A stretch of DNA of 64,000 nucleotides, taken from assembly GCF_030219325.1 (NCBI RefSeq), contig NZ_CP126625.1, forward strand, positions 2,654,857 through 2,718,856, read 5' to 3'. Each line of letters starts with the position of its first letter. The first letter of the stretch is position 1. The notes beneath the pieces are model-generated. The model was not told the origin of the DNA. It saw only the letters and a list, made by a program, of their open reading frames with translations, and searched no databases. A program made the position numbers and the translations under genes. Positions 21,329 through 24,099 of the stretch are shown here, piece after piece. The stretch is from Geothrix sp. (GTDB lineage Bacteria > Acidobacteriota > Holophagae > Holophagales > Holophagaceae).

Positions 21329-22495
21329 TCAGGCCTTCCGGTCCAGGATCACCAGGGTCACGTCGTCCAGGAAGGGCGCGGGATGGTTGAAGGTGCGGGC
21401 CTGGGCGATGACGGCGTCGGCCGCCGCCTCCGCGCCCACCGGCAGCTCCGCACAGATGCGGCGCAAGCCGGCCTCCTCGAGCATGGTGCGGTCCTCGCGT
21501 TCCACCTCCACCAGGCCGTCGGTGTACAGCACCAGGCGGTCCTCCGGCAGGAACTCGGCATCGTGCTCCATGAAGGGCAGCTGCTCATCCAGCCCCAGCA
21601 TGAAGCCCTTGCCCCGCAGCACCTCGGAGCGCTGCAGTCCGCCCTTCGCCCCGCCCACGATCCGCAGGGGGGCGCAGTGCCCGGCCACCACGTAGCGCAG
21701 GCGGTTGGAGACGGGATCGAGGCGGCCCAGCCAGGCCGTGGCGAACTGCTCGGCCAGGGTGGAGCGGCAGAGATCCTCGTTCATGCCCTGGGCCCAGGCC
21801 AGGGGCTCGCCCCCCAGCCGCACCTGGTTCTCGAAGGAGGTCTTCACCATGGCGGAGATGAGCGCCGCGGTGACGCCATGGCCGCTCACGTCGGCGATCA
21901 TCATGGCCGTGCAGCCATCGGGCAGGGGCAGGATCGCGTAGATGTCCCCGCCGATGCCGGCTGCCGGAAGATACCGGTGCGTATACCGGGAGCCCGGCGC
22001 CTCGCCTGGCAGCTTGGGCAGCAGCCCCATCTGGAGGGCGGCCGCCAGCTCCATCTCCTCCTGCACCTTCTGCTGGAAGGTGGTGAGCTCCTTGTTCTGC
22101 CGCTTGATCTCCTTCTGCATCTCGATGAGACGGAAGGTGGAGTCAACCTTGGCCAGCACCTCCTGGGCGTGGAAGGGCTTGGGGATCATGTCGTCGGCGC
22201 CCAGGGCCAGGCCGCCGATGCGCGAGGCGGTGCCGTCCAGGGCGGACAGGATGATGAAGTAGATGTCGCGGGTGGCCGGGTCGCTCTTGACGCGCTTGCA
22301 CAGCTCGTCGCCGGGCATCTCCGGCATGCGGAGGTCCGAGATGATGAGGTCGGGCCGGGAGCGGCCCATCTCGTCGAGGGCTTCCAGACCGTTGGCGGCG
22401 GTCAGGACCTGGTAGCCCGCCCGCTTGAGGTAGAAGCTGAGGATGTCCCGGATGGGTGCTTCATCATCCACAACCAGAACGGCGCCCTTGGCCAT
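21329..22495 (-). CDS. Response regulator with SpoIIE-type PP2C phosphatase output
   Basis: A 388-residue protein. The receiver domain is at 1-120 with D10-D11, acceptor D54 and K106. A coiled-coil linker spans about 120-150. A PP2C/SpoIIE phosphatase follows, with metal motifs GGD (182-184) and DVSGHG (202-207), LYTDGLVE and the final DDVTLVIL. This architecture (RsbU/RssB-like) dephosphorylates a STAS-domain antagonist in response to phosphorylation of the receiver. It lies 14 bases downstream of a STAS gene that is its likely substrate. The ATG at 22495 begins the receiver domain. Confidence 0.9.
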   Translation of the reverse strand: MAKGAVLVVDDEAPIRDILSFYLKRAGYQVLTAANGLEALDEMGRSRPDLIISDLRMPEMPGDELCKRVKSDPATRDIYFIILSALDGTASRIGGLALGADDMIPKPFHAQEVLAKVDSTFRLIEMQKEIKRQNKELTTFQQKVQEEMELAAALQMGLLPKLPGEAPGSRYTHRYLPAAGIGGDIYAILPLPDGCTAMMIADVSGHGVTAALISAMVKTSFENQVRLGGEPLAWAQGMNEDLCRSTLAEQFATAWLGRLDPVSNRLRYVVAGHCAPLRIVGGAKGGLQRSEVLRGKGFMLGLDEQLPFMEHDAEFLPEDRLVLYTDGLVEVEREDRTMLEEAGLRRICAELPVGAEAAADAVIAQARTFNHPAPFLDDVTLVILDRKA

Positions 22496-22509: not shown

Positions 22510-22848
22510 TCAGGCGCCGCGCAGAGCGTCCTGCTCCGTGGCGAAGATGGAGAAGTAGTTGGTGAGGTTGGTCTGGTCGAAGGTCTTCTTCACCGGCGCG
22601 GGGAGACAGCACAGGTGCAGCTTGCCGCCGGACTTGTCCACGCTGTTGCGAGCGGCGACCAGGAGCCCCAGGCCGGAGGAATCGATGAAGCTGACGCCTT
22701 CGAGGTTGATCGCGAGGAGCTTCGGCTGCGCCGTTGCCACCGTCTCGCGGATCACGTCCCGCAGCTGGGCGGTCACCTCGAAATTGACCTTGCCCTGGAT
22801 GGACACCACGGAAGCGGTGCCTTCTTGGCGGGTCTGGATGTTCAGCAT
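22510..22848 (-). CDS. STAS-domain anti-anti-sigma factor
   Basis: A 112-residue single STAS domain of the SpoIIAA/RsbV type. The phosphorylatable loop reads FIDSSGLGLL with Ser57/Ser58, and the N-terminal VVSIQGKVNFEVTAQLRDVI is typical. In partner switching, the unphosphorylated protein binds and blocks an anti-sigma kinase. No RsbW-type kinase gene is in the window. Its ATG overlaps the end of the upstream RelA/SpoT-like gene by seven bases, and its AGGAGG ribosome site lies inside that gene, so the two are coupled. Confidence 0.92.
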   Translation of the reverse strand: MLNIQTRQEGTASVVSIQGKVNFEVTAQLRDVIRETVATAQPKLLAINLEGVSFIDSSGLGLLVAARNSVDKSGGKLHLCCLPAPVKKTFDQTNLTNYFSIFATEQDALRGA

Positions 22849-24011
22849 GGTTCCTCCTGAAGGATTCCCTGAAGTACTCTCCGCCGGGCGGCGTCCCGCT
22901 GGCGCTGTTTGTATTCCGAATGGGATGCGGGACCGGATCGTGAGCTTTGAAACCCCGATTGTTCCATCACTTGGACTTCATGTGCGAAGAAGAAAGTAAA
23001 CTCCTCCTGATCCTGGATCAACTCCGGAATGCGGACGAGGTCGGATAGCTCGGTATCTCCCATGGTCTGGAGGCGCTCCTGGAGGGTCTCCAGGGCCCGG
23101 GTGGCGGGGCTGGGGAGCCGAACCAGGGTGCGGGCAGTGAATTGGATGGCCGAGTAATCCTTGCTGGAAAAGGGGTTTTGATCCTTTCCGGGGCCCTTTA
23201 TGGCCAGGGTCCGGCTCAGCGCCTGTCGCTCCTCGGGCCCCAGGTCCTGGATCCGGAAGAAGGGTGGGGTCGCCTCGCTCCAGGCAGCCAGTGCCTCCAT
23301 GTCGATCATCAGGTTCCGGCTCCGGCTGGGCTTGATGTGCGTCGGCATGAGCACGTGGTGGTCCAAGAGGAAGCGGATGACCATCAGCACGCCCAGCTGG
23401 TCCTCGGCCACCAGGCGGATGCCGATCTGGTCATAGATGGTCTCAGCCACGTTCTCGGGCTTGTGGAGCATCTTCAGGAGCATGGAGACCCGGTCCTTGT
23501 TCTCCTTGCGCTCCATGGCCACCAGGGGCACCTCGTAGGCCCCCCGCAGGAACCAGCGGCCCTCCTCGCACACCAGGTACTGGTCGTAGCGGCTGAAGAC
23601 CTGGCGCTGGATCTCGGGCAGGAAGCGCAGGTTCACATTGTGGTCCACGTGGAAGAGCGTGTGCATCACCCGGAGGATGGCGCAGGACCAGCGTCCCCGG
23701 ATGTTGCGGGGCCGGTCGGAGGCCCAGACCAGCAGATCCAGCGGGTCCTGCAGGTCCCGCACTTCCAGGGGGACGTGGAGGCTGGTCCCCTCCAGCACCA
23801 CGGCCTCCAGGAAGTCCACGGCGTCCTCGTAGACCCGCATCACGGCGGCCCGCTGGACCGGGACATCCATGTCGTAGCCGTAGTTCAGCGCGAAGTTCCT
23901 GGCCTCCCCGGGGGAGTGGATCCGCAGCGAATCCAGGTCGATGGGCGAGCCGCCCCCCAGGATCACCTGGGTGACTTCGGGGGGCATGGGGAACAGGGCG
24001 TGGGGAGTCAT
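22842..24011 (-). CDS. Divergent RelA/SpoT-like (p)ppGpp synthetase-fold protein
   Basis: A 389-residue protein with scattered RelA/SpoT synthetase hallmarks in the right order. It has a Lys-rich segment near 170-184 (DRVSMLLKMLHK), the metal-Asp strand IYDQIGIRL with D194, and the KPSRSRN loop near 227-233. It also has SKDYSAIQF at 283-291 (matching the gYxSxH strand, with Gln where His is usual), HEVQV with E345 and Q347 (matching vExQi), and SHSEYK near 363-368 (matching aaHxxYK). No HD hydrolase or TGS domain is seen. The assignment is by motif order only. It heads a trio with STAS and SpoIIE genes. Confidence 0.6.
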   Translation of the reverse strand: MTPHALFPMPPEVTQVILGGGSPIDLDSLRIHSPGEARNFALNYGYDMDVPVQRAAVMRVYEDAVDFLEAVVLEGTSLHVPLEVRDLQDPLDLLVWASDRPRNIRGRWSCAILRVMHTLFHVDHNVNLRFLPEIQRQVFSRYDQYLVCEEGRWFLRGAYEVPLVAMERKENKDRVSMLLKMLHKPENVAETIYDQIGIRLVAEDQLGVLMVIRFLLDHHVLMPTHIKPSRSRNLMIDMEALAAWSEATPPFFRIQDLGPEERQALSRTLAIKGPGKDQNPFSSKDYSAIQFTARTLVRLPSPATRALETLQERLQTMGDTELSDLVRIPELIQDQEEFTFFFAHEVQVMEQSGFQSSRSGPASHSEYKQRQRDAARRRVLQGILQEEPC

Positions 24012-24050
24012 GGCGGCTAGAACCTACATCGGTCTTTCAAGGAATCACAA

Positions 24051-24082
24051 TAAAAACGGGGCGCCCAGTCCTGGACGCCCCG
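24051..24082 (-). terminator. Intrinsic terminator after atpE
   Basis: On the minus strand an 11-bp stem with one mismatch (24057-24067 with 24072-24082, loop of 4) is followed by TTTTTATT. It lies 18 bases beyond the atpE stop and would end the atpZ-I-B-E transcript. Confidence 0.8.
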
Positions 24083-24099
24083 CTCGGAACAAGGAACGC

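Follow-up and report, generated by a model that had tools for sequence, protein, structure and literature searches.

The question raised by this locus is what kind of enzyme, if any, is encoded by a gene of 389 codons on the minus strand of the window (22842..24011, ATG start). The window is the whole stretch of 64,000 nucleotides of Geothrix sp. DNA that was analysed. A first-pass annotation, made from the sequence alone, proposed a divergent RelA/SpoT-like synthetase in an unusual gene context, and suggested that the protein might make an alarmone, be an inactive sensor, or use another nucleotide. The family assignment, the relation to Rel, the predicted fold, the active-site conservation and the gene neighbourhood were analysed, and the possible functions are weighed below.

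Gene and family assignment

The 389-aa protein matched two NCBIfam models in the family-model scan: TIGR04562 (415 bits, cut-off 140, residues 12-381) and TIGR04552 (389 bits, cut-off 125, residues 8-381). Since these models span almost the entire sequence, the protein is a complete, near full-length member of the already catalogued family TIGR04562/TIGR04552 ('TIGR04552 family protein'), and no difference from that family was seen. The NCBIfam entry is a number with no function given. The synthetase landmarks occur in the order proposed at first: the Lys-rich stretch RKENKDRVSMLLKMLHK, IYDQIGIR (containing D194), SKDYSAIQF, HEVQV (containing E345) and SHSEYK. This order is beyond chance, given that both family models score far over their cut-offs and that relatives were found in several phyla. 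An antisense ORF (23142-24020, plus strand) was considered and rejected as the true gene, because it is the minus-strand frame that fits the family models and the relatives from other phyla.

The Pfam scan of the protein at E<=1 returned only RelA_SpoT (PF04607), with 14.9 bits and below the gathering score of 27; no HD, TGS or ACT domain was found, and the claimed absence of hydrolase, TGS and ACT domains was thus borne out. Likewise, no PHROGs or PADLOC match was found for this protein at E<=1, and a phage or defence reading was rejected. The protein is filed under TIGR04562/TIGR04552, since PF04607, the small alarmone synthetases (SAS) and the long RSH each fail a tested feature. The N-terminal part (residues 1-125; 23637..24011, minus strand) is predicted to be helical and gave no Pfam match, and this analysis found no known relative of it; Y44, G45 and H117 are invariant in 101/101 aligned sequences. 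The N-terminal third of Rel (the HD region) showed no match to the family alignment in hhalign, and a hydrolase-like N-terminal part was rejected on this result. The same part carries an H117-x3-H121 pair (H in 101/101 and 91/101 sequences), which could bind a metal or line the acceptor site.

In a literature search, TIGR04552 was named in PMC9888234 alone, and TIGR04562 was not found. Among the matches listed for Bdellovibrio and ppGpp, no study of the family occurred. In the survey of Atkinson 2011, the initial collection of RSHs relied on the Pfam model (E 1e-2), and 30 RSH subgroups are listed; compared by name only and in the accessible part of the paper, none of the 30 subgroups (bdRel included) is named for TIGR04562/TIGR04552 (PMC3153485).

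Homology to the RelA/SpoT synthetases

A profile of 101 family members was searched against 9,791 ORFs from all loci, a set enriched in Rel by the choice of loci. Within it, 31 of the 32 Rel proteins ranked above every non-Rel ORF, the best of which had E 0.55; the exception was the Rel of locus L029 (E 1.3). The matches were weak when taken singly: the best was L028 (E 9.4e-6), and the remaining outranking proteins had E values of 0.02-0.5. Thirty of the 32 aligned at the E..Q..G..H..YK block alone; L028 and L029 matched both this block and the Lys/Asp block, in order. In agreement with the profile search, the weak sub-threshold matches of the TIGR04562 model in 297 genomes comprised two Rel loci only, again L028 and L029. 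The latter reads as a full Rel, and the former is a 727-aa frame with the Rel motif FEVQ[IV]RT. The model thus detected Rel in only 2/297 genomes, and in 0/14 control genomes, of which 11 have a PF04607 match.

Alignment of profiles gave a similar picture. When compared with 31 Rel proteins by hhalign, the family aligned over 32 gap-free columns (EVQ..G..SH..YK) with a P value of 4.8e-5 and a tool probability of 68%. The Asp segment followed in the correct order (P 0.036, tool probability 1.4%), and with smaller alignments the Lys/Asp segment was found with a P value of 2.4e-4 (tool probability 44%). When 48 family members were scanned singly, PF04607 was obtained at E<=0.1 in 36 (best 7.3e-8), and the only other Pfam family was MAPEG, in two. 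In the reverse direction, PF04607 weakly matched the family's own locus in 2/20 family-bearing genomes (E 2.1e-4 and 8.4e-4). In searches against the PDB, the single 389-aa sequence gave chance-level matches only; a first profile search returned protein A and FANCD2, and a later one placed protein A above RelSeq (E 0.044), followed by two more Rel/RelA chains with E values of at least 1.

The several kinds of score agree, and RelA/SpoT synthetase ancestry of the family is supported at a moderate level by these sequence comparisons. The long RSH enzymes (Rel, RelA, SpoT) share the synthetase-domain homology and the gap-free EVQ..G..H..YK block; whereas the family shows no HD, TGS or ACT match, and most genomes checked have a separate Rel-type gene. 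A second RelA_SpoT-domain protein was also observed in the same genome (L003, G000:C1:38977-39318, 53.7 bits). It is a SAS-like frame of 371 aa beside Rel, and it was not recovered by the 101-sequence family profile.

Predicted structure

An AlphaFold2 model of the 389-aa protein was built from a 48-row alignment (pLDDT 86.0, pTM 0.79). An earlier model from a 9-row alignment was poor (pLDDT 56) and was excluded from the fold comparison. The best 50 of 84 Foldseek matches were all RelA/SpoT-type synthetases (RelP, RelQ, Rel, RelA, CapRel); one of these 50 was below E 0.001 (7.9e-4), and the TM scores to the small synthetases were about 0.4-0.5, with large rmsd across long gapped alignments. 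In the VIA comparison, the best match was Rel of M. tuberculosis (Z 9.3, 3.2 A, 128 residues), and rows 1-19 were RelA/SpoT-type, where Z scores of 8-9 are near the level that the tool labels common. The highest-ranking match of another fold, DNA polymerase lambda, had a Z score of 7.5 and an rmsd of 7.2 A. The entry 3l9d, present in both lists, carries a locus-name label only. In the alignment with 1vj7, the aligned stretches end at residue 363 of the model and 341 of RelSeq; counting back without gaps places E345 opposite RelSeq residue 323, which we take to be the catalytic Glu.

Comparison of the predicted structure with RelP, RelQ and Rel thus returned the synthetase fold, and not an unrelated one. 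The synthetase fold is assigned to the model on moderate scores. D194 and E345 are both invariant and fall in the expected alignment register and strand order, which supports their clustering in space only indirectly. The profile evidence and the fold evidence, each moderate, together uphold the initial description of a divergent RelA/SpoT-like synthetase.

Conservation of the ATP and Mg2+ side

The residues of the putative active site were compared among 101 relatives with a median pairwise identity of 32% (minimum 25%), a set which includes extra paralogues. Over residues 12-379, 17 of 368 columns are invariant. According to the accessible part of a structural study of SaRelP, K80, S84, K88 and R91 contact the phosphates, R78 and R112 stack on the adenine, H190 holds the ribose, and D107 and E174 hold Mg2+; Y151, located in the G-loop, plays a critical part for the guanosine nucleotide (PMC5794853). 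Six of these residues (K80, S84, K88, D107, E174 and H190) correspond to K172, S176, K180, D194, E345 and H364 of the window protein, and are identical in 101/101 relatives. The place of R112 is occupied by R199, which is Arg in 91 relatives, Lys in 9 and Gln in 1. The full set of nine ATP/Mg residues known from that part of the SaRelP work is incomplete in the family, since two places differ: that of R78 (position 170) has P in 36, E in 28, S in 24, Q in 7 and others, and that of R91 (position 183) has H in 80, A in 19 and Q in 2. The neighbouring positions are basic (169: K in 94, R in 7; 184: K in 97, R in 4), and from the alignment these residues might replace the two lost Arg.

By analogy with RelP, as far as described in the available text of PMC5794853, the following elements can be proposed, all on the minus strand. 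The putative ATP-donor segment comprises residues 169-184 (23460..23507), with the invariant K172, S176 and K180. The candidate Mg2+ Asp and adenine-side Arg lie in D194-R199 (23415..23432). E345-V-Q347 (22971..22979), in which E and Q are invariant, might supply the second Mg2+ ligand; and G360..H364..Y367-K368 (22908..22934) might form the ribose-binding His motif.

Variation of the acceptor side

The YxSxH motif belongs to the G-loop, ends in His, and is also visible in the Rel alignment. Its counterpart in the window protein is Y286-S-A-I-Q290 (23142..23156, minus strand), where Gln stands at the place of the His, as the first-pass annotation had pointed out. Gln is one of several residues found there: Q in 79, K in 19, H in 2 and R in 1 of the 101 relatives. 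The G-loop Tyr itself is mostly kept (Y in 82, F in 17, H in 2). The stretch R230-S-R-N233 (23313..23324, minus strand) lies at the RxKD stretch of Rel, with the register set by eye and N233 invariant. Positions 230 and 290 covary, with R230/Q290 in 78 relatives and Q230/K290 in 19; this covariation may be a single event in one clade.

Two inserts were located from the model and the alignment. The G-loop region contains one of about 45 residues (234-278; 23178..23312, minus strand); between N233 and N279 it usually has 42-56 residues, and 10-14 in five rows of 101. The other (298-337; 23001..23120, minus strand) separates the predicted strands beta4 and beta5; in 23/101 relatives it is short (<=22 residues). 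The family thus resembles RelP (SAS2) and RelQ (SAS1) in the predicted synthetase fold, the K-x3-S-x3-K pattern, the Asp and Glu for Mg2+, the G-loop Tyr and the C-terminal His; whereas it differs in the replaced YxSxH His, the two lost donor Arg places, the two inserts, and the N-terminal part of about 125 residues, and is about twice as long. The overall pattern suggests an ATP side that is frozen and an acceptor side that has been remodelled.

Distribution and relation to Rel

The family gene was matched in 47/47 genomes of the genus Geothrix, 46 of them over the cut-off; Geothrix fermentans is among the carriers (locus L057). In the sample of its own phylum, 25/297 genomes were over the cut-off, all from one taxonomic family, in which 2/27 genomes are without the gene. 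Outside this phylum, the family was found over the cut-off in three further phyla, each sampled through a labelled locus: 210/240 genomes for that of L093 (labelled Bdellovibrio); 17/149 genomes, some with several copies, for that of L100 (labelled Eremiobacterota); and 3/5 genomes for that of L091 (labelled Deltaproteobacteria). It was absent from 14/14 control genomes.

The genome of the window protein also has a Rel-type gene. PF04607 was matched in 23/25 genus genomes searched, and the two without a match are incomplete drafts. In the Bdellovibrio-containing phylum, PF04607 was matched in all 20 family-bearing genomes checked, and in 16 of 20 checked among the 27 genomes without any family match. 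Since a Rel-type gene is usually also present, the family gene is an addition to Rel.

Some genetic data on Bdellovibrio are available. In the accessible part of PMC9888234 (Table 1), the family gene DOE51_RS08710 of Bdellovibrio sp. NC01 carried a one-base deletion at >75% in evolved line B, one of six lines. The same source reports three other high-frequency mutations in this line, so that hitch-hiking of the deletion is possible. The gene can thus be lost in such a setting, as would be expected of a regulator, and a regulatory role is more likely than an essential one. A single relA/spoT-like gene, bdt3408, was reported in one Bdellovibrio strain and as absent from another in the available part of PMC3539863; and the family gene is not named in the accessible part of a Bdellovibrio Tn-seq study (PMC6561027).

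Gene context

The gene is followed on the minus strand by a STAS-domain gene of the anti-anti-sigma type (22510..22848), the Shine-Dalgarno sequence and ATG of which overlap the last codons of the synthetase-like gene. Next is a gene for a receiver and SpoIIE/PP2C phosphatase protein (21329..22495), for which the ORF is listed from a GTG at 22612, and the match of most relatives starts near the ATG at 22495. Homologues of this pair were found within 3.5 kb downstream in 58/58 Holophagaceae-type loci (L032-L089), but in 0/22 (L090-L111) and 0/39 (L188-L226) loci outside this group, where some of the L188-L226 loci have little flank and some cover one place twice. The unusual gene context noted at first is therefore real, but it was found in the Holophagaceae-type loci only; the pair was rejected as a universal operon partner, and it cannot define the function of the family.

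Within the Holophagaceae-type loci, the last codons of the gene carry GGAGG in 54/58, and an ATGxTGA start-stop overlap is present in 53/58. These features suggest that the synthetase-like and STAS genes are translationally coupled. The conserved C-terminal EEPC residues coincide with the Shine-Dalgarno sequence and start codon of the STAS gene (window positions 22842-22860), and their conservation may therefore serve translation and not protein function. On the other side, atpE was found within 2.5 kb upstream in 55/58 loci (more than 2 kb off in L085). Two of the three loci lacking it have no upstream sequence, and L089 has sequence and no match. A terminator-like hairpin (24054..24085, minus strand) lies between atpE and the gene, and the upstream hairpin is long in several relatives; the count of such sites in the region is not above that of shuffled sequences. 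Our own scan gave terminator-like sites in 55/56 loci against 36.4 in mononucleotide shuffles, and a terminator tool gave 1 site against 1.4 in shuffles; by these counts, the gene may form a transcription unit separate from atpE.

The neighbours differ in other clades, and no partner gene constant across clades was seen when the neighbourhoods were compared. An iron-sulphur protein family occurs near the gene in 12/22 of loci L090-L111. In the Bdellovibrio-containing phylum, two genes are often located 3' of the family gene (seen at L111:10443-12401 and L224:8366-10330). The first (L224:7191-8375) gave no Pfam match, and the second has 4Fe-4S and 2Fe-2S domains (Pfam on L093 and L224).

Proposed function

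The conservation pattern suggests that the 389-aa protein is most likely an active, Mg2+-dependent pyrophosphokinase that uses ATP and descends from a RelA/SpoT synthetase domain, and not a dead sensor. ATP would be bound at the conserved donor site (K172, S176, K180, R199 and H364), Mg2+ would be held by D194 and E345, and the beta-gamma pyrophosphate of ATP would be transferred to an acceptor hydroxyl. The acceptor pocket appears to be rebuilt by the Gln or Lys at the His place, the G-loop-region insert and the added helical N-terminal part; hence an acceptor other than plain GDP/GTP is probable but not certain. The protein would act as a regulatory enzyme alongside the canonical Rel, and not as its replacement. 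In Holophagaceae it would probably be co-translated with, and perhaps controlled by, the STAS/SpoIIE partner-switch pair. This proposal as a whole (a pyrophosphokinase with a rebuilt acceptor pocket, regulatory beside Rel and linked to STAS/SpoIIE in Holophagaceae) seems reasonably likely. A stronger version is put forward tentatively, as a possibility: that the family is a separate class of RelA/SpoT-fold pyrophosphokinases with a product other than (p)ppGpp, which occurs beside Rel in most of the Bdellovibrio-containing phylum and in Holophagaceae, and is wired to STAS/SpoIIE in the latter.

Such a proposal would give concrete, testable enzymology to a numbered family without an assigned function, which occurs in Geothrix and in 210/240 sampled genomes of a phylum known for bacterial predation. 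If a novel alarmone or an RNA modification is made, an extra signalling layer would exist beside Rel, where starvation control is poorly understood. The family might also be regarded as a natural experiment, in which the acceptor pocket of RelA changes while the ATP site stays frozen.

The best-surviving alternative is an ordinary (p)ppGpp synthetase with GDP/GTP as acceptor, in which the Gln or Lys and the inserts only tune the activity. It would explain why the G-loop Tyr is mostly kept, why two members have His at the YxSxH place, and why the closest predicted folds are RelP, RelQ and Rel; moreover, the PF04607 match in 20/20 family-bearing genomes of the Bdellovibrio-containing phylum suggests that a hydrolase to clear ppGpp is probably at hand. 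However, the His is gone in 99/101 relatives, position 230 shifts with position 290 (possibly one event in one clade), the G-loop insert is large, and ppGpp is already supplied by Rel. An ordinary synthetase is thus considered doubtful.

Pyrophosphorylation of RNA, for example at tRNA 3' ends, is unlikely. The added, conserved helical N-terminal part would in this case grip the RNA, as FaRel2 handles tRNA via N-terminal helices near the G-loop, according to the accessible part of PMC11782079, and CapRel is among the weak matches of the predicted fold. The toxic SAS (FaRel2, CapRel, Tas1) are indeed similar in having a helical N-terminal part and a distantly related fold; whereas no antitoxin or immunity gene was recognised beside the family gene, the neighbours being STAS and SpoIIE/receiver genes here and others elsewhere. 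The clade-wide distribution (46/47 genus genomes and 210/240 of the other phylum over the cut-off) is housekeeping-like and not toxin-like, and the lack of a constant partner gene and of a PADLOC match for the window protein also argues against this function.

The inactive sensor raised in the first-pass annotation, or a structural protein, is very unlikely: the changed YxSxH His and the two donor-side Arg places not retained would fit it, but the donor residues K172, S176 and K180, the ribose contact H364 and the metal ligands D194 and E345 are unchanged in 101/101 relatives, in spite of the low median identity and the paralogues included.

If the family is such a separate class of pyrophosphokinases, the two pocket types, R230/Q290 and Q230/K290, may each serve an acceptor of its own, or may be alternative ways of binding the same one. 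In two scanned loci of the Q230/K290 type (L190 and L203), an acyltransferase gene is located directly downstream. One Eremiobacterota-labelled genome (G331) carries three family copies (L208, L209 and L210), two of which have a shortened G-loop insert of 10-14 residues with the donor-site residues intact.
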